From Chloroflexi bacterium OHK40 (GTDB taxonomy: Bacteria; Chloroflexota; Chloroflexia; Chloroflexales; Chloroflexaceae), in NCBI GenBank assembly GCA_004367505.1, contig SFCB01000137.1:1-64000 (forward strand): 64,000 bases of DNA. The letters run 5' to 3'. The notes beneath the pieces were generated by a model, which searched no databases, was not told the DNA's origin, and saw only the letters and a list, made by a program, of their open reading frames with translations. Shown in pieces: positions 9,887 through 19,692 of this stretch (positions are counted from its first letter, which is position 1; every line of letters starts with the position of its first letter). The translations under genes were made by a program, and so were the position numbers.

Positions 9887-10001
9887 ACGTTAGCCCCACC
9901 CGAGCGTTTGGGCAGAGGGTGACTCGCTGCTGCACCTGCCGTCTCCGCGCGAAGAGGGGCGGTTTGACCAATTGGCCCGCTTCCGCTATCCTCGTGGCGC
10001 T

Positions 10002-11792
10002 ATGCAACTGCCGCGCCGCCTCTTTCTCGCTCTGGCCCTCGCCGCTACCCTGGCCGCCTGCGCGGCGCCACCTGCGCCCGCGCCCACGCCTGGCGCGGTT
10101 GCTCCGTCCCCTGTGCCGACCACGCCGCTGCCAGCGGTGATCGCGCTTCCCACACCTGCCCCCACCCGGCTCAGTGTGCCGACCCCCTCAGCAGTACCCA
10201 GCGCAACCCCCGAGCCGCGCGATCCGCTCTTCGATCCGCGCCGCCTGAGTTACGCCCACGGCTTCAATGGCCCCGAGATCCAGGCCTTCCTCGAAGCCCG
10301 TGGCAGCCCGCTCAAAGATGTGCGCTTTCAGGTGGGGAATCGCTCCCACTCCTTCACCGATGTGCTGGTGGGCCTCAGCAGCCTCTATAGCCTCAATCCT
10401 GGCCTGATCCTGGCCCTGATCGACCTGCAAAGCGGCCTGGTGAGCAGCAGCTCCGCCTCTGCCGAGCAACTCGCCTGGGCTCTCGGCTACCGGGGCGACG
10501 GCGGCGGTCGGCGCGGGCTCTACTCGCAGTTGCGCTGGGCTGCCCGGGAGTTGCGCTACGCCACCCGCGACTATGCCCTCAAGGGGGCTGGCCCGCCGCC
10601 ACCGCTCATCTTCGCCGATGGAACACGCCGGGATGTCAGCCCCGATCTGCCCTTCAGCCGCTATGTGCTCGCCCGGGTGCTCGCGCCCACCGTGGCGCCT
10701 GGCGGGCTGGGCCAGCGCCTCGATGGGCTCGTGAACAGCTACACGCGCCTCTTCGGCGACCCGCGTGAGCCTCCGACCGATTGGCCCGCCCCCGCCGAGC
10801 CCTTCCTCACCCGTCCGATGGCCGAGCAGTTTCCCGTGACATCCTTCTTCGACCACGACTCGCCCTTCCTCGGCCAGAACGGCTCGCTCCATACCTACTG
10901 GGGCCGTGTGGAGACCGATGGCAACTTCGCCTACGATGGGCATACCGGCTGGGATTATGGCATGGGCCCGCCCGACGTCGTGCTCGCCGCCGCCGACGGT
11001 GAAGTGATCTTCGCCGGAAACTCCGACGATGGCTGCGCAACGCCCGCCCGCGCCGTCATCCTCGATCACGGCAATGGCTACCGCACTCTGTACTGGCACC
11101 TCGCCAGTATCGCGGTTGAGGCTGGCCAGCAAGTGGCTCGTGGCGCCGAACTAGGGGTGGCTGGCGAGAGCGGATGCGCGATCGGTGCCCATCTCCACTT
11201 CCAGGTGCAGTACCTTGGCCGCGATGTGGACCCCTACGGGTGGTGTGGAGTAGCCCCTGACCCGTGGGCCTCGAGCCCCGCCGGGCAGGTGAGTGTCTGG
11301 CTCTGGCAGGATATGCCCACGCCCTGCGGGCCTGCCCCACCCGGAGTGGTGGTGGTGGACGATGGAGCGCCTGGCTTTGTGAGCAGCGGGCAGTGGCAAC
11401 CCAGCGAGGTAGGCTATGGCGGCGGGTCGCGCTTTGCGGCCTCAAGCTTTGCTGGCAGTGCCGCCAGGCCCTGGCGTGCGGCCACCCTCCGGCCTGCTGC
11501 GGTGGTGGCCTGGCAACCAGAGCTTCCCGCGCCCGGCCGCTACCGGGTGCTCGCCTATGTGCCCTTCGCGCTCAACGGCCTCGACGAGACCCGCGAGCAG
11601 CGCTATCTGGTGCGTCACAGCGGCGGTGAGAGTCTGGTTGCCGTGAACGCAGAAGATGCGCGCAACTGGTGGGCCGACCTCGGCGAGTATGAGCTACGGC
11701 CGGGTGAGGCAGTGGTAAGCGCCAGCACCCTCGCCGGCGACGACCGCCGCGGGATCTGGGTAGACGCGGTGGCCTTCGTGCCAGTACGGTGA
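10002..11792 (+). CDS. M23-family metallopeptidase lipoprotein
   Basis: A 596-aa secreted protein. ATG 10002 gives a short basic N terminus, a hydrophobic core and the lipobox LAAC at about residues 20-23, so it should be a lipoprotein. A Pro/Ala/Thr-rich spacer (about 25-75) follows. The LytM/M23 domain lies near residues 285-420, with HTGWDYG (zinc His and Asp) and IGAHLHFQV (HxH). The C-terminal about 140 residues look like a beta-rich binding domain with Trp- and Gly-rich strands. M23 enzymes cut peptidoglycan peptide bridges, though some are inactive regulators. Here the zinc ligands appear intact. The gene stands alone, convergent with the ABC permease gene. Confidence 0.9.
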   Translation: MQLPRRLFLALALAATLAACAAPPAPAPTPGAVAPSPVPTTPLPAVIALPTPAPTRLSVPTPSAVPSATPEPRDPLFDPRRLSYAHGFNGPEIQAFLEARGSPLKDVRFQVGNRSHSFTDVLVGLSSLYSLNPGLILALIDLQSGLVSSSSASAEQLAWALGYRGDGGGRRGLYSQLRWAARELRYATRDYALKGAGPPPPLIFADGTRRDVSPDLPFSRYVLARVLAPTVAPGGLGQRLDGLVNSYTRLFGDPREPPTDWPAPAEPFLTRPMAEQFPVTSFFDHDSPFLGQNGSLHTYWGRVETDGNFAYDGHTGWDYGMGPPDVVLAAADGEVIFAGNSDDGCATPARAVILDHGNGYRTLYWHLASIAVEAGQQVARGAELGVAGESGCAIGAHLHFQVQYLGRDVDPYGWCGVAPDPWASSPAGQVSVWLWQDMPTPCGPAPPGVVVVDDGAPGFVSSGQWQPSEVGYGGGSRFAASSFAGSAARPWRAATLRPAAVVAWQPELPAPGRYRVLAYVPFALNGLDETREQRYLVRHSGGESLVAVNAEDARNWWADLGEYELRPGEAVVSASTLAGDDRRGIWVDAVAFVPVR

Positions 11793-11922: not shown

Positions 11923-12669
11923 CTACTGGGTGCTGAAGATCAGGTCCCGGCGGGAGAAGGCGTACACCGCGAGGCCCAGCAGCGAGACGAGCAACGACGC
12001 CTGGGCCAGCAGGTTCGCGATCGCCGTCGGGGTGCTGTAGTCGCGCGTGACGGCGAGCTGGAAGCCGTAGAAGGCCGGGACAAGCGGGCCGCCGAGCAGC
12101 GCCTGGAGCGCCCGCAGCAGGGCGCGCACAGTCTCCGGGAGCGCCTCGAGCACCGTGCCGCCGATGAAGTTGCTGGAGAAGGCGAGGGCGATCAGGCCGA
12201 GCACGAACAGGCGCCAGTTGGTGGGGAGGACCAGGGGCGAGAGCATGAGCATCAGCGCCGCCAGCAGGCCGATGTTGAGCAGCAACGGCATCGTCCCCAG
12301 CACCCACCCGGCCAGATCCAGGTCGAAGGGGCGGTTGAGCGCCGCGACGATCAGGCAGAGTAGCCCGTAGGAGCCGGCGACAATCGTACACGCGGCGGCG
12401 AAGAGTCCGAGCAGGTAGGCTGCGCGGCCGAGCCCCCTGGCCAGGAGCAGATAGCCCTGTGGCCGATCGCCGAGGCCAATCAGCGAGGCCATGGTGTACA
12501 GCGTGAGGACGGGGGTAAAGACCCCCGTGACACTAAAGAAGTACTCGGCGTCCATCGGGCGGCGCAGGAAGATCGCGTAGGTGACGAGCACGGCAATGAT
12601 CTCGATCGCCACCCGGCCAGAGCGCAGGTACTCTAGCAGCGTAAAACCGATAAAGCGTAGCAGGCGCAT
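11923..12669 (-). CDS. ABC-2-type transporter permease
   Basis: A 248-aa integral membrane protein with about six hydrophobic helices and a cytoplasmic tail ending SRRDLIFSTQ. Its position three bases after the ABC ATPase stop marks it as the permease half of an exporter. The sequence is too generic to predict a substrate. It is the last gene of the seven-gene minus-strand unit that begins with the hydrogenase-like large subunit, so it is expected to be expressed with those proteins. Confidence 0.8.
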   Translation of the reverse strand: MRLLRFIGFTLLEYLRSGRVAIEIIAVLVTYAIFLRRPMDAEYFFSVTGVFTPVLTLYTMASLIGLGDRPQGYLLLARGLGRAAYLLGLFAAACTIVAGSYGLLCLIVAALNRPFDLDLAGWVLGTMPLLLNIGLLAALMLMLSPLVLPTNWRLFVLGLIALAFSSNFIGGTVLEALPETVRALLRALQALLGGPLVPAFYGFQLAVTRDYSTPTAIANLLAQASLLVSLLGLAVYAFSRRDLIFSTQ

Positions 12670-12672
12670 CGC

Positions 12673-13776
12673 TTAGTCCACCTCCTGCCGTGCCCCGCTG
12701 GCATCCTCATCGCCACTTCTGCCGAGCAGTTCGTTGAGCAGGGTGTCGCCCTCGCCGGGGCGCCGGGGCGGCGGGGGCGGCGCGCTCGGGCTTTGCAAGG
12801 GAACTGGCCACCCATCGGGATGCGCTGGCCGACGGGTAGGCGCGGGCGATGCCTCCGGCTGCGGTCGCTGAGCGCCGTAGACCGCCTGGCGATAGAGTTG
12901 TTCGAGCGGGCTCTCCAGGGGCTCAAGCGCGAGAATACTCACCTCCGCGTCGAGCAGCGTGCGCAGCACCGCCGCCTGGAGCGCCGCCGAGTTGGGGTTG
13001 ATGCGCACGCCCTGCGGCTCGCTGCTGACAGCCACGGCGAGCAATTCCAGGCGCCGTCGCACTTCGGGCGATAGCCTGTCCACCCGGATGCGCACGCTGC
13101 CTGCCACATTCCGCAGGTCGGCCACGGTTGCCTCGATCACAATCTTGCCACCTGCAAGAACACCCACCCGGTCGCAGAGCAGCTCAACCTCTTGCAGGTA
13201 GTGTGTGCAGAGGAACACAGTATGCCCACGGTCGCGCACAGCGGCAAGAAGCTCGATCACCTCGCGCTGGCCGGCCGGGTCCAGGCCGCTGGTGGGCTCG
13301 TCGATCAGCAGCAGGTCCGGGTCGGCCAGCAACGCCTGGGCCACACCGAGCCGCTGCAGCATGCCCTTGGAGAAGGTGCCCAGGCTGCGATCGGCCGCCT
13401 CGTGCAGCCCCACGGTGGCCAGTTCGCGCTCCACCCGTTCGTGGAGCTCAGCCCCGCGGAGGCCGCTGAAGGCGCCGAGGAAGCGCAGGTACTCGCGGGC
13501 CGTGTAGCGGGTATGGTAGCGTTGCCGCTCGGGGATGTAGCCGATCCGTGGCCGGGCGCGTTCGAGGTTGCTGTCGCCGAAGAGGCGTACCCGGCCGCGA
13601 TTCGGGCGCAGGAAGCCCAGCATCAGGTGGATCAGGGTCGATTTCCCCGAGCCGTTCGGCCCCAGCAGGCCGAAGACCTCGCCGGCGGCCACGCGCAGGT
13701 TCAGGCCCTGTAGCACGGGAAGCTCGCCGTAGGCCTTGTACAGTTCGTCGATCTCGATGACGTCGGTCACGGCCAT
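12673..13776 (-). CDS. ABC transporter ATP-binding protein
   Basis: A 367-aa ABC-2 exporter ATPase. It has Walker A GPNGSGKST near residue 40, Q-loop region GYIPERQRYHTRY, signature FSKGMLQRLGVAQAL, Walker B LLLIDEPTSGLDP and the switch His in FLCTHYLQE. After the nucleotide-binding domain (about 1-215) a DUF4162-like region is followed by an unusual Pro/Ala-rich tail of about 75 residues (from about 295 on). The open frame runs upstream to 14403, but that part is out-of-frame reading of the preceding membrane gene. ATG 13776 begins the conserved domain five bases after that gene's stop. Confidence 0.92.
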   Translation of the reverse strand: MAVTDVIEIDELYKAYGELPVLQGLNLRVAAGEVFGLLGPNGSGKSTLIHLMLGFLRPNRGRVRLFGDSNLERARPRIGYIPERQRYHTRYTAREYLRFLGAFSGLRGAELHERVERELATVGLHEAADRSLGTFSKGMLQRLGVAQALLADPDLLLIDEPTSGLDPAGQREVIELLAAVRDRGHTVFLCTHYLQEVELLCDRVGVLAGGKIVIEATVADLRNVAGSVRIRVDRLSPEVRRRLELLAVAVSSEPQGVRINPNSAALQAAVLRTLLDAEVSILALEPLESPLEQLYRQAVYGAQRPQPEASPAPTRRPAHPDGWPVPLQSPSAPPPPPRRPGEGDTLLNELLGRSGDEDASGARQEVD

Positions 13777-13781
13777 TCCCT

Positions 13782-14597
13782 TCACTGGCGTCCGGCGAGG
13801 GCAAGGGCGAGCGACGCAATGGCGGCCAGGGGTAGCGCCCAGAGGGCCTGGAGTTGCAGGGCAGCGGGGAGTGTCAGGCGGGGTAGGCGGCCATCGAGGC
13901 GTCGCAGCAAGAGCGCTCCGGCCACGAAGCCGGCGGCGACCATTGCGAGGGCGAGCCACGTCGGGGCCACGGCGCTCGGTAGGAGCGCAACGAGGGATGC
14001 GGCCAGCAGGGCGCTGGCCCGCACCTCGCGTGCCCAGGCGTCGCTCACCCGGGCCTCGGGGGGCAGGCCCGCCGTCGTTCCGCCTGGGGTGACGTTCTCC
14101 TCGGCGCCAAAAGGCCCCTGGCCAAGGGCGGCTGGGAGCGCCAGCAAGGCCGCAGCGGCAGCAAGCAGGTGGGCCGTTGCCGTGGCGGGGCGCCAATCGC
14201 CGTGGGCGGCCAGGGCCACCCCCAGGGCTGCCCACAGCACTGCGCGGGCGAGCCCCCCCAGTTGAGCCTCGCGGATGCCCGCTCGGACCACGCCGGGCAC
14301 TCCGGCGGCCAGCGCGGGCAGCAGCGGCAGCAAAAATGCCACCTCGAAGCCGGCCCACGCCCAGAACCAGGCCGTGCCGCCGCCAGCCGGGTGCAGCGGC
14401 CACGGCGTGGCCGCCAGGCCTAGCCCGGCGCAGACAACGCTCGCCAGGGCTGCCCGGCCCTCGCGGCTGCCCAGGCCAGCCGTCGCTGGGAGTGCCGGCC
14501 GGCCTCTGGCCAGCAGCCCGAAGGCGAGCCCGAGCGCTACCACTGTGAGCAGGCCCGGGTAGAGTACGGCGGCAATGATCGCGGAGAGAAGTTCCAT
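13782..14597 (-). CDS. NuoH/HyfC-like membrane subunit (diverged)
   Basis: A 271-aa protein with about eight hydrophobic helices. The N terminus (LSAIIAAVLYPGLLTVVALGLAFGLLARG) and the loop PFGAEENVTPGGTTAG recall the NuoH/HyfC/EchB family, in which an acidic AEE/D-E loop faces the quinone or hydrogenase module. Many conserved charged positions of true NuoH are not seen, so the assignment rests partly on its place beside NuoN- and NuoD-like genes. ATG 14597 has GGAAGGG upstream. An alternative start lies at 14642. It is separated by 96 bases from the NuoN-like gene before it and by 5 bases from the ABC ATPase after it. Confidence 0.6.
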   Translation of the reverse strand: MELLSAIIAAVLYPGLLTVVALGLAFGLLARGRPALPATAGLGSREGRAALASVVCAGLGLAATPWPLHPAGGGTAWFWAWAGFEVAFLLPLLPALAAGVPGVVRAGIREAQLGGLARAVLWAALGVALAAHGDWRPATATAHLLAAAAALLALPAALGQGPFGAEENVTPGGTTAGLPPEARVSDAWAREVRASALLAASLVALLPSAVAPTWLALAMVAAGFVAGALLLRRLDGRLPRLTLPAALQLQALWALPLAAIASLALALAGRQ

Positions 14598-14693
14598 AGT
14601 GCCCTTCCAGCCGGCTGGCTCGGGCGGGTGAAGCGGGCCCATTGTTCGGCTTCCGCGCCCCGGGTGTAAACCATCAACGCTGGCCAGGCGCAG

Positions 14694-16145
14694 CTAGAGG
14701 GCCCGAATGAACGCAAGTCCGCGGAGCGCCTCGGCGATAGTGCCGAGCAGTGGTTGCGGGTACAGCCCGATCGCCAGGCACAGCAGCAGCAAGATGCCTG
14801 TCAGTGCCGCAGTGCTGCGTGGCTCTGGCTCCAGCCGGCGCTGCGTCGGCCGGTCGAGCTCTGTTTCCCCGATCAGCAGCGGTTCTGCGGCCACCGTCTC
14901 CTCGGCTGGTCCGAGCAGCCGCTCGCCTACCGCTCGCGCCAGCCCCAGCCCGGCTAGCCCCGTTCCCAGCACCAGCAGCCCCAACTCGGCCCACCCGCGC
15001 TCCGCAGCTGCCTGGTAGAGCAGGAGGTGGCTGATCGCGCCGTTGAGCGGCGGTAGCCCGAGCAGCGCCAGCCCGCCCGCAAGCAGGCCCGCGCTGGCTA
15101 CTGGCCACCGGCGCAGCAGATCGCGCCGCAGCACCCCGGGCGTACGACCGTCTGGGCGCTCCAGCAGCGCCAGGCTCACAAAGATTAATGTCACCGCGAT
15201 GATCTGGTTCAGCGCGCCGAAGATCGCGCCGGCCAACCCTAGCGTCGTCACCGAGGCCAGGCCATAGAATACCATACCACAGTTGTACAGGATGAGATAC
15301 GCGAGTGTGCGCCTGAGCGTGGCGGCGCCAAGGGCGAGCCCCGCGCCGATTACGGTGCTGAACAGGGCCCCCACCCGCATGACGCCGATCGCCCCTTCGC
15401 TCTCCAGCAGCAGCGAGGGGAAGCTCTGGAAGGTGAAGATCAATACCAGCAGGCTCGTCGTGTTCAGCAGGGTGATAATCAGCGCCGCCACGAGTGGCTC
15501 GGCATCGTCGACCAGGTCGGTGAGCCAGGTGTGGAAGGGAATGAGTGCCAGCCGCAGCGCAAAGCTCACCCCGAGCAGCGCCAGAATGAATCGGGATGGT
15601 GAGATCCGCCCGGGCAACTCCCCCGGGCGATAGATGTCGGTGAGCACGAAGGCGATGTACATCAGCACGCAGGCCACGACCATCAGCACCAGGTATTTCA
15701 GCGCCGCCGCGATCGCCCGCGTGCCCACCAGGGTACTCGCGCCCGCTGGCAGGTCGACGATCGCCAGCACCGCCGTCAGCCCGGTGGCGGCGAGCAGCAG
15801 CGTGGTGATAAACGGGTTCTGCAAGAGCAGCACGGCGCACACCTGGGCAATGGTGAAGAGCGCAATCGGTACGAAGTTTTCGCCGTGGGGTAGGTGCCAG
15901 GCAGCCACCAGCGCGAAGCCGCCAGTGGCGAGGAAGAGCAGCATGAAGACCCGATTGAGGGCGTTCAGGGTGAGCGTGACCCCCAGGAACCGCGTCGGGT
16001 CGTCGAGGGGGATCTGGGTGGCGAGCAGCATTTGGGCCAGCACCGTGCCCAGGGCGGCGAAGATCACCAGGCTGGTGCGCCGCCGCAGGACGAAGGTGCT
16101 GAGCGCCATCGTCACCGGGAAGAAGATGAGGAGCAGGTAGAGCAT
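14694..16145 (-). CDS. NuoN/HyfB/MrpD-like antiporter-type subunit
   Basis: A 483-aa protein with about 13-14 hydrophobic helices, from the proton-conducting Mrp-antiporter/complex-I family. Family marks include AALKYLVLMVV (helix-7 Lys region), PFHTWLTDLVDDAEP (matching PxHxWLpdA...AP) and RRTLAYLILYNCG (matching KRxLAYSSixxxG, with Lys replaced by Arg). The Glu normally found in helix 5 is not apparent in QVCAVLLLQNPFITTLL. A polar loop of about 45 residues precedes the last helix. The start directly abuts the stop of the upstream gene (16146), so translation is likely coupled. It is probably part of a membrane complex, but ion translocation is uncertain. Confidence 0.8.
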   Translation of the reverse strand: MLYLLLIFFPVTMALSTFVLRRRTSLVIFAALGTVLAQMLLATQIPLDDPTRFLGVTLTLNALNRVFMLLFLATGGFALVAAWHLPHGENFVPIALFTIAQVCAVLLLQNPFITTLLLAATGLTAVLAIVDLPAGASTLVGTRAIAAALKYLVLMVVACVLMYIAFVLTDIYRPGELPGRISPSRFILALLGVSFALRLALIPFHTWLTDLVDDAEPLVAALIITLLNTTSLLVLIFTFQSFPSLLLESEGAIGVMRVGALFSTVIGAGLALGAATLRRTLAYLILYNCGMVFYGLASVTTLGLAGAIFGALNQIIAVTLIFVSLALLERPDGRTPGVLRRDLLRRWPVASAGLLAGGLALLGLPPLNGAISHLLLYQAAAERGWAELGLLVLGTGLAGLGLARAVGERLLGPAEETVAAEPLLIGETELDRPTQRRLEPEPRSTAALTGILLLLCLAIGLYPQPLLGTIAEALRGLAFIRAL

Positions 16146-16874
16146 TTAGCGCCTGTAGAGCTCGTTGAGCTCGAGCGTCTTGAGCCGTCCGTAGAGCAGG
16201 CCGGCAAGGTAGGCCACCGCCAGGGCCAGCAAGATGTTGAAGAGGCTGAGCAAGGCCAATGGAAAGACGTTCAGGCCGCTCGCCTCGGGCGTGCTCACCA
16301 CAGCCGTGTAGAGCAGGTCGATCGCACTGGCGCAGAGCAGGAGCCCCAGGCCAATCTTCAGCACGTCACCGGCAGTGGCGATCGTGAGTACGCCGGTGAG
16401 GGCGAGCCAGTACCAGGCAAAGTCGATCGCCACCGATGGCCCGATCGGATAGATCCGTGGTAGAGCCAGGCTCGCCATCAGTGCGAGGACCCCCGCCCAG
16501 AATGGCACGACGTAGTCGCTCAGTTGGAAGGGCGCGGTGGCGCGCTGGCGCTGCGCGGCCCGCGCCGCTCGCCGCAGTTCGGCCAGGCCGAACTCGTCGA
16601 GGTTCTCCAGGCCGTACTCGCGTGAGAAGGTGAGCGCGGTGATGGCGAGAATCAGCGTTACCGCCACCCCCGTGCAGAGCTTGACGAGGACCAGTGTGCT
16701 GATCTCCAACCCGAAGAGGCTGATATCCGGCGCGACAAAGCGCTGTTCGGCGAGGAAGAGCGCGATCGTTACGTAATTGAGTAGTAGAGCTGGAATGGTT
16801 ATCCGCCAGTCGCGGAAGAGGAGCACCACGGCCGCAGTGAGGCCAATGGCGATCAGGAACCAGTTGATGCCCAT
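16146..16874 (-). CDS. NuoK/HyfE-like membrane subunit
   Basis: A 242-aa protein with about seven hydrophobic helices broken by a basic cytoplasmic loop (LAELRRAARAAQRQRATAP). The C-terminal part, GVLTIATAGDVLKIGLGLLLCASAIDLL onward, follows the NuoK pattern (GlyLxxrnxixxLiGlElllnavnLl) but lacks the membrane-embedded glutamates of NuoK. The overall size and the extra N-terminal helices fit HyfE-type subunits better than true NuoK. ATG 16874 was preferred to an earlier in-frame start at 16904 because it opens the first helix. Function is inferred mainly from its place between two antiporter-like genes. Confidence 0.6.
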   Translation of the reverse strand: MGINWFLIAIGLTAAVVLLFRDWRITIPALLLNYVTIALFLAEQRFVAPDISLFGLEISTLVLVKLCTGVAVTLILAITALTFSREYGLENLDEFGLAELRRAARAAQRQRATAPFQLSDYVVPFWAGVLALMASLALPRIYPIGPSVAIDFAWYWLALTGVLTIATAGDVLKIGLGLLLCASAIDLLYTAVVSTPEASGLNVFPLALLSLFNILLALAVAYLAGLLYGRLKTLELNELYRR

Positions 16875-16904
16875 CGTACGCCCCCTCGGACAAGGTTTCA
16901 GCAT

Positions 16905-18611
16905 TCAGAGGGCCATCAGGAGCATAATCGTGATCAATGCCGCCAGGACCCCGAGCAGGTAGTAGCGCTGTTCGAAGGGGCCGATCAGGAGTCGCAGCAA
17001 GCCGCTCAGCCGCAGCAACGTGGCCCACGCTCCGCCGAACAGGGCCGTTGGCCGTCCCAGCCCGGCCAGTGGGCGCAGCGTGGCGCTGAGCGCCTCGGGT
17101 CCGAGCCGTGTTGGCGTCTCGTCCGGATCGTAGGGCGCCGACCGGGCCGGAACGCCGCCGGCCACCAGGGCCACGAGCAGTAGCAATGTCAGTCCCGCGC
17201 CGATAACGGCCAGGCTCCCGTCCAGTGGTGGCTCCAGTGGCGCGAATCGTAGCGTCTCCAGCCAGCCCTGCCAGGCGAGCCCCGGTGCGACGCCAAGCAT
17301 CAGCAGGGGTGCGAGGCTCAGACCTCCCGGGACGATGCTGCCCCACGCGGCTCGCTCACCGGGCTGGGCGCGCCTCCAGAGCCCCCCCAGGGGCGCCGCC
17401 AGGGCCAGCGCGAGCAAGACACTGCCAGCCAGCAATGGCGCCAGTAGCCAGGGCTGTTGCTCCAGGGCCGCCTCGAGTTGCCAGAATCGTCCCCAGAAGC
17501 CCCAGAGTGGGGGCAGGCCTAGCGCCGCTGCGGCTCCCCCCACCCACAATAGCCCGACGATCCGGGGCGCGCTCTGGCTCAGCGTGTAGTCGTCGCTGCC
17601 GGTGGTACGCTCCAGGAGCACCGCTGCGGTCGCGCCAACTACGCTGCTGAGCATCAGGTTGAGCAGCAGTGCGGGGCCCGCCAGCGCTCCGAGCGGCCCG
17701 GCCAGCCCCGCCGTAGCCACCACCAGTGCCGCCTGGAAACCGGCCGACCAGCTCAGGATGGGGCGCAGGCGCCGTGGCCCCAGTGCGCCGGCCGCGCAGG
17801 CCAGCGCCCCCAGGCTCCCGACGAGGCCAAGCGTTGTGGCCCAGCCGCTGGGCAGGATGGGGAGCGCGGACGTGCTGCGCAGCAGCCAGCCGAGGGCCGA
17901 TGCGGGCGCACACAGCCCGAAGATAAGCGCGCCTAGTGGTGCCGGACCCTCCTCCGCCTCGGATTGGGCTGCCAGCAGCGGAGGGCAGCCGCCGAGGGCC
18001 AGCACGGCGAGCAGGCCGCAGAGTGTGGCAGGCACGCCTGGGAGCTCACTTCTCAGCAAGGCCGGGCCGCCCGTCACCAGGGCGCCAGTGAGCAGGACGC
18101 TTGCGAGCAGCCCGAGGGTTGGCCCGATCGGTGCTGGGCCAGCGGCGCGCGCGGCGCCGCTGGCCCACAGCGCGCCATAGCCGCTCAGGGCCACGGTGGC
18201 CCACGCCAGCGGCTGGATAAACGAGGTGATTGGGGCTCCCAGGCTGAGCAGCGCTCCACTCAGGCAGAGTAGCGCCCAGGTGAAGAGCGAGCCGAAGCCC
18301 CGGACACCCGGTGCGATCGCGGTGGCCACGGCCAGCGTGGCTGCGGCCCCACCGCCCAGCAGCGCAAGTGCTAGCGCCCGCTCGCCCGGCGCGAACCCCG
18401 GCGATACACTGAACACCGCATCGCCGAGGATGAGCAGCACCACTGGCGCCGCCTCGCCGGAAGGGGCGGCGCCGCTCACCACGATACCCGCCGCTACCGC
18501 GCAGGCGACTACGGCCACCAGCCCGAGTTGACGGGTGGCCAGCCCACGGCTCAGGCCACCGCAGATGGTGGCGCCAGCCAGCAGGGTAAGAAGAGCGAGA
18601 GTGAGAGTCAT
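16905..18611 (-). CDS. NuoL/HyfB-like antiporter-type subunit (degenerate)
   Basis: A 568-aa, extremely Ala/Leu/Gly-rich protein with about 14-16 hydrophobic helices and a final separate helix (YYLLGVLAALITIMLLMAL), like HyfB/NuoL C-terminal extensions. The antiporter core is recognisable only weakly. PPLLAAQSEAEEGPAPLGAL stands where PxHxWLPxAxxxAPxPVsAL is usual, so His and Trp are gone. RRLRPILSWSAGFQ replaces the KRxLAxSSixxxG motif. No helix-5 Glu is seen. It may be a structural, non-pumping homologue. ATG 18611 lies 7 bases after the large-subunit stop. An upstream start at 18644 would overlap that gene. Confidence 0.65.
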   Translation of the reverse strand: MTLTLALLTLLAGATICGGLSRGLATRQLGLVAVVACAVAAGIVVSGAAPSGEAAPVVLLILGDAVFSVSPGFAPGERALALALLGGGAAATLAVATAIAPGVRGFGSLFTWALLCLSGALLSLGAPITSFIQPLAWATVALSGYGALWASGAARAAGPAPIGPTLGLLASVLLTGALVTGGPALLRSELPGVPATLCGLLAVLALGGCPPLLAAQSEAEEGPAPLGALIFGLCAPASALGWLLRSTSALPILPSGWATTLGLVGSLGALACAAGALGPRRLRPILSWSAGFQAALVVATAGLAGPLGALAGPALLLNLMLSSVVGATAAVLLERTTGSDDYTLSQSAPRIVGLLWVGGAAAALGLPPLWGFWGRFWQLEAALEQQPWLLAPLLAGSVLLALALAAPLGGLWRRAQPGERAAWGSIVPGGLSLAPLLMLGVAPGLAWQGWLETLRFAPLEPPLDGSLAVIGAGLTLLLLVALVAGGVPARSAPYDPDETPTRLGPEALSATLRPLAGLGRPTALFGGAWATLLRLSGLLRLLIGPFEQRYYLLGVLAALITIMLLMAL

Positions 18612-18618
18612 CGGGAGT

Positions 18619-19692
18619 CTACGCCACCGCCAGGCACGTGTCACACGGGTCGGTCGACACGATGATCATGGGGGCGTCGTCAAGGGTGGCGCCGGCAAGC
18701 ACCGTGCGCGCCAGCAGGCGGTCGAGTTGGGGGGCGGGCCGAGCACGCACGCCTACCAGCCGGTGGCCGTCACTCTCCACCTCGTATGTGAGCGGGCCCC
18801 GTGGCGCCTCAACCGTGGCCGCCGTCGTCGCGGCAGGCAGTGACTCGGGGAGTCGCCCGCGCCAGGAACCATCGGGAAGTTCGGTGGCGGCGCGCTCGAC
18901 GAGCCGCAGGCTCTCCAGCGCCTCAAGCAGCAGCACCAGGATGCGGGCGTACACATCGCCGCCCTCCTGCACCGCCGGTGTCGGTGCCAGTTCGGCGTAG
19001 GCGGCGTAGGGCGTGTCAATCCGCGCGTCACGGGCAAGCCCGGCGGCGCGGGCCATGGGGCCGCCGAGACCAAACTGCGTTGCCGCGCTCGCCCCGATCG
19101 TCCCAACGTCGAGCGTGCGCGCCAGGATCGGCCGCCGGGTGATCGTGCGCTCCGCAATTGGGAAGAGCTGCGCGCGGATCTCGCTGGCGCCCAGGCGCAG
19201 GGCCTCTCGCCCCGCCGCGCTCAGATCCTGGCCAACACCGCCCGGCAGGAGCCACCCATCCTGGTTCCCCCGCAGCTCGGCAAGGGCGTGGCGGGCGGCG
19301 TCCCCGTGGTGGGCGAAGGTGGCGGCCAGCGGCCCTAACCCTAGTGTCGCGAAAATGGCCGCGAGCGTCCGCAGGTGCGATGCCGCCCGCTCCAGTTCGG
19401 CGGCCGCAACCCGCAGCCAGGCGGCCCGTGCTGGCACCTCAATGCTCGCCAGGGCCTCAACGGCCTGGCAGAGCGCCAGCGCGTGGGCCTGGCCGCAGTT
19501 CGGGCAGAGTCGCGCCGCCGCTTCGAGCATTCGCTCGAGCCCCTTGCGCTCCACTGCGACGAACGGTGAGCTGGCGCCGGGCTCGGGGCGGTACTCAACA
19601 TCCGCGATCCGCTCTCCCTCGATCGTAAGCAGGGCCCGCTGAGCATGTGAGAGTGCCGGGGCGCCTGGCCTCAGCGCGAGCCTATAGGTCAC
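18619..19692 (-). CDS. group-4 NiFe-hydrogenase/NuoD-like large subunit
   Basis: A 357-aa soluble protein of the HycE/EchE/NuoD family. The N-terminal metal motif is LCPNCGQAH (Cys63, Cys66, His70), in place of RxCGxCxxxH. The C-terminal motif is DPCDTC (Cys350, Cys353), four residues before the stop. Between them are AAELERAASHLRTLAAI, RTLDVGTIGASAA, GLGGPMARAAGLARDARIDTPYAAY and GDVYARILVLLLEALESL, all closely following NuoD/HycE. All four Ni-Fe thiolate ligands are therefore present, unlike in complex I NuoD. There is no removable C-terminal peptide, as in CooH-type subunits. The GTG start follows GGAG at 6-base spacing. It is the first gene of the unit. No small subunit follows. Confidence 0.85.
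   Translation of the reverse strand: MTYRLALRPGAPALSHAQRALLTIEGERIADVEYRPEPGASSPFVAVERKGLERMLEAAARLCPNCGQAHALALCQAVEALASIEVPARAAWLRVAAAELERAASHLRTLAAIFATLGLGPLAATFAHHGDAARHALAELRGNQDGWLLPGGVGQDLSAAGREALRLGASEIRAQLFPIAERTITRRPILARTLDVGTIGASAATQFGLGGPMARAAGLARDARIDTPYAAYAELAPTPAVQEGGDVYARILVLLLEALESLRLVERAATELPDGSWRGRLPESLPAATTAATVEAPRGPLTYEVESDGHRLVGVRARPAPQLDRLLARTVLAGATLDDAPMIIVSTDPCDTCLAVA

Follow-up and report, generated by a model that had tools for sequence, protein, structure and literature searches.

A cluster of seven genes in the 64,000-nucleotide stretch of DNA analysed here (hereafter the window) probably represents, in the variant of crown Chloroflexaceae, a branch of the complex I/group 4 hydrogenase superfamily that is specific to Chloroflexia. 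In this form the NuoB-like iron-sulfur subunit (B) has been lost and the coupling of redox reactions to pumping is most likely gone, whereas the large subunit, the two antiporter-type subunits and one further membrane subunit (D-L1-K-L2) have been kept. Its ancestor was an MBH/Ehr-type complex that had an Fe-S subunit of its own, since lost in this genome, and among known kinds the hydrogenase-related (Ehr) complexes come nearest to it.

The seven genes lie closely packed on the minus strand, with the coordinates and orientation of the original prediction. In operon order they encode a NuoD/HycE-like large subunit (D, 357 aa, 18619-19692), recognised by a Complex1_49kDa match and its predicted structure; an antiporter-type subunit (L1, 579 aa, 16905-18644; Proton_antipo_M, 5.7e-07); a membrane subunit in the HyfE/NuoK position (K, 252 aa, 16146-16904); a second antiporter-type subunit (L2, 483 aa, 14694-16145; Proton_antipo_M, 1e-13, and PDB alignments); a strongly diverged NuoH/HycD-like membrane anchor (H, 286 aa, 13782-14642; predicted structure); an ABC ATPase of the DrrA-like ABC-2 class (367 aa, 12673-13776; ABC_tran, 3e-29); and the permease of the ABC pair (248 aa, 11923-12669), a helical membrane protein with no family match by itself. 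The names given earlier to these genes hold, D, L1 and L2 by family matches, H by the fold of its model, and K by size, position and membrane character. The ATPase starts at the ATG at 13776; a longer listed frame, to 14403, overlaps H and is not the ABC protein. The D and L1 frames share 26 bp, K directly adjoins both L1 and L2, and the gaps that follow H and the ATPase measure 5 and 3 bp. The 51 bp between L2 and H (14643-14693, minus strand) are the site at which relatives carry gene B, absent here. Junctions this tight (an overlap of 26 bp and gaps of 51, 5 and 3 bp) leave no space for a further gene, and neither a NuoB-like nor a ferredoxin gene was found within the seven genes or their gaps, as had been claimed. 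The identical gene order recurs in dozens of genomes, which is beyond chance. A single transcript for the seven genes is plausible; two promoter-like matches, both weak, occur on the minus strand, and no convincing terminator was found at the cluster. Upstream lie genes for an aminotransferase, an adenylosuccinate synthetase and a succinyl-CoA ligase-like subunit. On the downstream side, a convergent gene for an M23 peptidase whose C-terminal domain is golvesin-like (9972-11792) adjoins the permease, and this neighbour recurs in loci of the Chloroflexus type and in several further crown loci. The neighbouring genes on either side gave no clue to function.

A comparison of the neighbourhoods of the large subunit across relatives, which had been proposed as a check, revealed the missing subunit. 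PF01058 matches in relatives lie inside the homologous operon, between L2 and H, and the protein read from this gap (B, 127-148 residues) carries the cysteine pattern GSCGGC..GRC..DGCPP, as in the NuoB-type [4Fe-4S] site. The best match of the B profile was MbhJ (E 1.9e-16), followed by HycG. Since the relatives hold B inside the same operon, its absence represents a loss within a known superfamily and no separate invention. The proposal of a different machine that dispenses with the usual electron wire is thus probably right for this genome, but the wire is native to the system.

Roseiflexaceae, basal Chloroflexaceae and family f2 (where one member reads CCCF) have a B with all four cysteines. 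B is present with none of the four in two Herpetosiphonaceae loci (L042 and L150) and in one locus of the more distant genome G322 (L171), and it is absent from one roseiflexacean locus (L112), from Herpetosiphon and its near kin, and from every locus spanning the junction in crown Chloroflexaceae, which include this genome and Chloroflexus; contigs ending before the L2-H junction, such as L110, were not scored as losses. Besides B, Herpetosiphon and its near kin have lost H and the ABC genes, and their operon stops after L2. On a D+K+L2 tree (FastTree), with an assumed root at L171, this distribution corresponds to at least three losses of the B gene (at the base of crown Chloroflexaceae, where the loss is single, in L112 and in Herpetosiphon) and two losses of its cysteines. 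No gene for NuoC or an 8Fe ferredoxin was seen in the family operons examined. In other parts of the phylum, typical loci of group 4 hydrogenases have the canonical C-terminal cysteine motif and a NuoB-like gene, and many have a two-cluster ferredoxin. G322 itself possesses, besides its stripped D-L1-K-L2-B operon (L171, 8193-13874), a separate group 4-like cluster (L201) with a ferredoxin-NuoB fusion.

The lost subunit is not supplied from another place in the genome. The profile searches on which our genome-wide statements about this organism rest found three PF01058 genes, of which one belongs to complex I (contig C283) and the other two lie beside ordinary NiFe hydrogenase large subunits (C215 and C54). 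The organism's second complex I cluster is truncated by the start of contig C58 (L059), before nuoD, and nuoA-C of that cluster are absent from the assembly. Two single-contig genomes of the Chloroflexus type (G029 and G033) have four PF01058 genes each, two of them partnered by a hydrogenase large subunit and two by a NuoD. The recommended search for an unpaired hycG/nuoB gene was therefore negative in this genome, each PF01058 gene having its own partner here as in G029 and G033; an orphan NuoB was rejected, and the alternative that the missing parts lie elsewhere fell with it, no unlinked, co-varying hycG/nuoB having been found. The NuoB of complex I could in principle be borrowed by D.

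The family is essentially one of the order Chloroflexales. Operon-type D occurs in nearly all of the 61 relatives compared; a D-like match was obtained in 60 of them, a count that includes ordinary NuoD because the search scores these too. A few genomes (e.g., G054 and G052) have no high-scoring D, and G054 nevertheless has K. K and L2 are the most conserved markers of the family. Among 400 genomes of the phylum, strong matches to a K profile were restricted to the order, plus the distant same-class genome G322. When 84,980 species were scanned for patterns derived from K, a motif-limited approach that distant relatives may escape, 60 loci were obtained, mainly from Chloroflexus, Oscillochloris, Chloroploca, Viridilinea, Roseiflexus and Herpetosiphon; the few titled Singulisphaera or Thermoflexus group with Roseiflexaceae in the tree. 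The gene order of the family is D-L1-K-L2-(B)-H-ATPase-permease, and we found no published account of such an operon in a search mostly outside subscription journals, in agreement with the earlier remark that no described system with this gene order was known. The genome paper of C. aurantiacus describes two complex I clusters only (PMC3150298), and a study of C. aggregans two NiFe hydrogenases only (PMC8004040). In a FastTree phylogeny D forms a clade within group 4-type sequences, beside a NuoD-like protein of genome G136 (L198); with a support of 0.81 and a long branch, the exact sister of the clade is uncertain. In that genome the NuoD-like and NuoB-like genes (L198, 4983-9481) belong to a cluster for polysaccharides of the capsule or wall (LytR-Cps-Psr, Wzy, glycosyltransferases) and are separated by a metallo-beta-lactamase-like gene and a gene for a 578-residue protein without assignment; the first cysteine motif of this D was not found by a simple pattern search.

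The stripped operons are under selection. Pairwise dN/dS values were 0.01-0.06 for every subunit in Herpetosiphon and mostly 0.06-0.30 in crown Chloroflexaceae, up to 0.46 (H, in one pair), so the stripped forms are functional genes. Pseudogenization or decay was rejected given this overall range of 0.01-0.46, mostly below 0.3. A link to phototrophy was rejected as well, since the non-phototrophic Herpetosiphon keeps the D-L1-K-L2 core.

The membrane arm is recognisably that of the complex I superfamily, with a NuoH-type anchor and antiporter-type subunits. H had no match in Pfam, and its structural model (pLDDT 92.9) aligned with HycD (7z0s_D) over 258 residues with Z 22.4 and rmsd 3.1, and with NuoH chains at Z 20-21. 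K gave no match above chance in Pfam, NCBIfam or PDB and carries a conserved LDEF..AELRRAAR motif. The ion pair and proton wire of antiporter-type subunits are formed by a Glu in TM5, a Lys in TM7, a Lys/His in TM8 and a Lys/Glu in TM12 (PMC11496545). Compared with NuoL/M/N of the same genome, both L1 and L2 deviate at these canonical positions. Across Chloroflexales the TM5 Glu and the TM8 Lys are missing in both subunits, and the TM7 Lys is absent from L1 and is an Arg in nearly all L2, which could still make an ion pair. L2 of the window has this Arg, and a His replaces its TM12 Lys. Roseiflexaceae and basal Chloroflexaceae retain the latter Lys; Herpetosiphonaceae have an Arg in its place, and crown Chloroflexaceae a His, Gln, Tyr, Ser or Arg. 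One locus without B (L135) still has the TM12 Lys, which indicates that B was the first to be lost. The more distant L171 and L178 retain Glu and Lys in L1. The loss of the canonical residues from L1 and L2 is no proof that ion flux is absent. Trios of the L1-K-L2 type, with no adjoining D, B or H, also occur in other Chloroflexota families (L172, 7235-11133; L174, 7721-11942; L178, 8660-12572); those in L172 and L174 are likewise devoid of the canonical lysines, which L1 of L178 keeps.

The ABC pair is a frequent companion of the complex. The original prediction of an ABC exporter joined to it by operon structure is right for most families, but the pair is no defining part, being absent from Herpetosiphon, where the D-L1-K-L2 core persists without it, and from family f2. 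From its position in the operon, it probably works together with the complex in this genome. The best NCBIfam match of the ATPase was TIGR01188 (8.8e-63, below its cut-off), which is DrrA-like, and the second best was GldA, also below cut-off. Cultured members of the group are filamentous gliders, and we considered a possible link to gliding.

The large subunit D matched Complex1_49kDa in Pfam (E 1e-31), its closest solved structures by sequence were HycE of formate hydrogenlyase and MbhL, and its AlphaFold model (pLDDT 93.1) aligned with HycE over 351 residues (Z 45.5, rmsd 1.9). D of the window keeps four cysteines (C63, C66, C350 and C353), with a tail of four residues after the last. Across the family operons the tetrad reads CCCC, CHCC, CDCC, ACCC, CACC, CCSC or SADD. 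C350 and C353 are the most constant and nearly invariant; position 63, which lies near that of the quinone-site Tyr in NuoD, is Cys in most members (above 90% across families), and C66 varies. Most D proteins of the B-less crown clade retain all four. In two loci (L138, 5102-6172; L139, 131-1201) D is of the SADD type, with every ligand cysteine gone, and the adjacent B keeps its four, so that the sites of D and B are uncoupled; these loci are the mirror image of the window's state.

At the level of the family D is not a working [NiFe] hydrogenase, and D of this genome is probably none either. A true group 4 enzyme with small and ferredoxin subunits encoded elsewhere would agree with the four cysteines of D in the window and with the hyp genes of this genome, HypD and HypF among them, for which its two ordinary NiFe hydrogenases can account. 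We give this explanation very little credence, and a working hydrogenase was rejected. The four ligands are unconserved across the family despite their presence in the window. MbhL Glu21 has a catalytic role (PMC7684303); D never has Glu at the equivalent position, where His, Arg, Gly, Thr or Val is found. No small subunit with a [4Fe-4S] cluster exists in the operon or as an orphan in the genome. HypD was absent from 10 of 25 relatives tested, and three of them (G039, G058 and G045) have the complex with a CCCC-type D and lack both HypD and HypF. The suggested look at hypA-F found hyp genes in this genome; relatives without them still keep the complex, which speaks against a dependence on Hyp maturation.

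What a redox-free reading chiefly leaves unexplained is that most D proteins of the crown clade retain their cysteines. This suggests that D has a ligand in that clade, perhaps a redox or metal centre. Metal may be inserted into D in this genome, given its HypD, HypF and NiFe hydrogenases. The CxxC of C350/C353 together with C63 might bind zinc or iron, or act as a disulfide switch, making the complex a sensor or gate. The constancy of these three cysteines, next to the variable C66, and the occurrence of four-cysteine D in genomes without HypD/HypF agree with this idea. We nevertheless consider it unlikely, because the operons with the SADD-type D are still under selection and because kept cysteines may idle: MBS retains two of the four without needing them for catalysis (PMC7684303). 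It is also quite unlikely that the complex still passes electrons, D docking the complex I NuoB, a hydrogenase small subunit or an unrecognised carrier and thereby driving the membrane arm. The D fold is fully preserved in the model, the four cysteines are there in most crown members, and the genome does encode NuoB-like proteins. However, every NuoB-like gene in G029 and G033 stands beside its own large subunit, D remains under selection after B lost its cysteines in two lineages and its gene in three, and the proton-path residues are gone from L1 and L2. Coupling of a redox reaction to ion transport, as in Ehr complexes, would likewise be at odds with these missing residues.

We favour instead the stepwise erosion of the redox and pumping parts of the complex. 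The ancestral operon was D-L1-K-L2-B-H-ATPase-permease, with B as a short NuoB/MbhJ-like [4Fe-4S] subunit. The lineage of this genome lost B, and most of that branch later lost the TM12 Lys of L2 as well, while D-L1-K-L2 stayed under selection. With B lost and the NiFe and proton-path residues unconserved, redox-driven pumping is most likely gone, electron transfer being no longer coupled to ion movement. D probably persists because it caps the H-L-K-L membrane arm on the cytoplasmic side, and this arm would serve in conduction, transport or scaffolding, here probably with the ABC pair.

Ehr complexes are defined (PMC6349859) by a large subunit homologous to those of group 4 hydrogenases without conserved Ni-Fe ligands and by antiporter-like subunits. 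The present family has the homology and the antiporter subunits, and its ligands are unconserved, though D of the window shows all four. It shares with Ehr membership of the complex I superfamily and a large subunit without a conserved full [NiFe] site (PMC6349859, PMC7684303). These papers treat the Ehr that they cover as redox complexes, among which MBS keeps a NuoB-like Fe-S subunit, whereas in this family the Fe-S subunit is lost (as in the window) or cysteine-less, no NuoC or ferredoxin subunit occurs, and an ABC pair is appended. MBH and formate hydrogenlyase are close in their parts (D is nearest HycE and MbhL by sequence and HycE by fold, B nearest MbhJ and H nearest HycD), but here no NiFe chemistry is expected, proton-path residues are missing and there is no ferredoxin or NuoC-like subunit. 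Complex I has the folds of D and H and the antiporter family in common with it and differs in having an NADH module; the B-less branch has no N2 cluster either.

Members of the complex I superfamily are usually treated as redox machines. We tentatively suggest that in this family a complex I-type machine may have turned into a redox-free membrane device, selected across the order and mostly allied with an ABC exporter. These results caution against annotating the genes of such clusters as hydrogenase or NADH dehydrogenase. One order holds the whole series, from an Fe-S subunit through a subunit without cysteines to none, all under strong purifying selection, and this series, with the culturable Chloroflexus aurantiacus and Herpetosiphon aurantiacus, lets one ask what a NuoD fold and an antiporter arm do without electrons.
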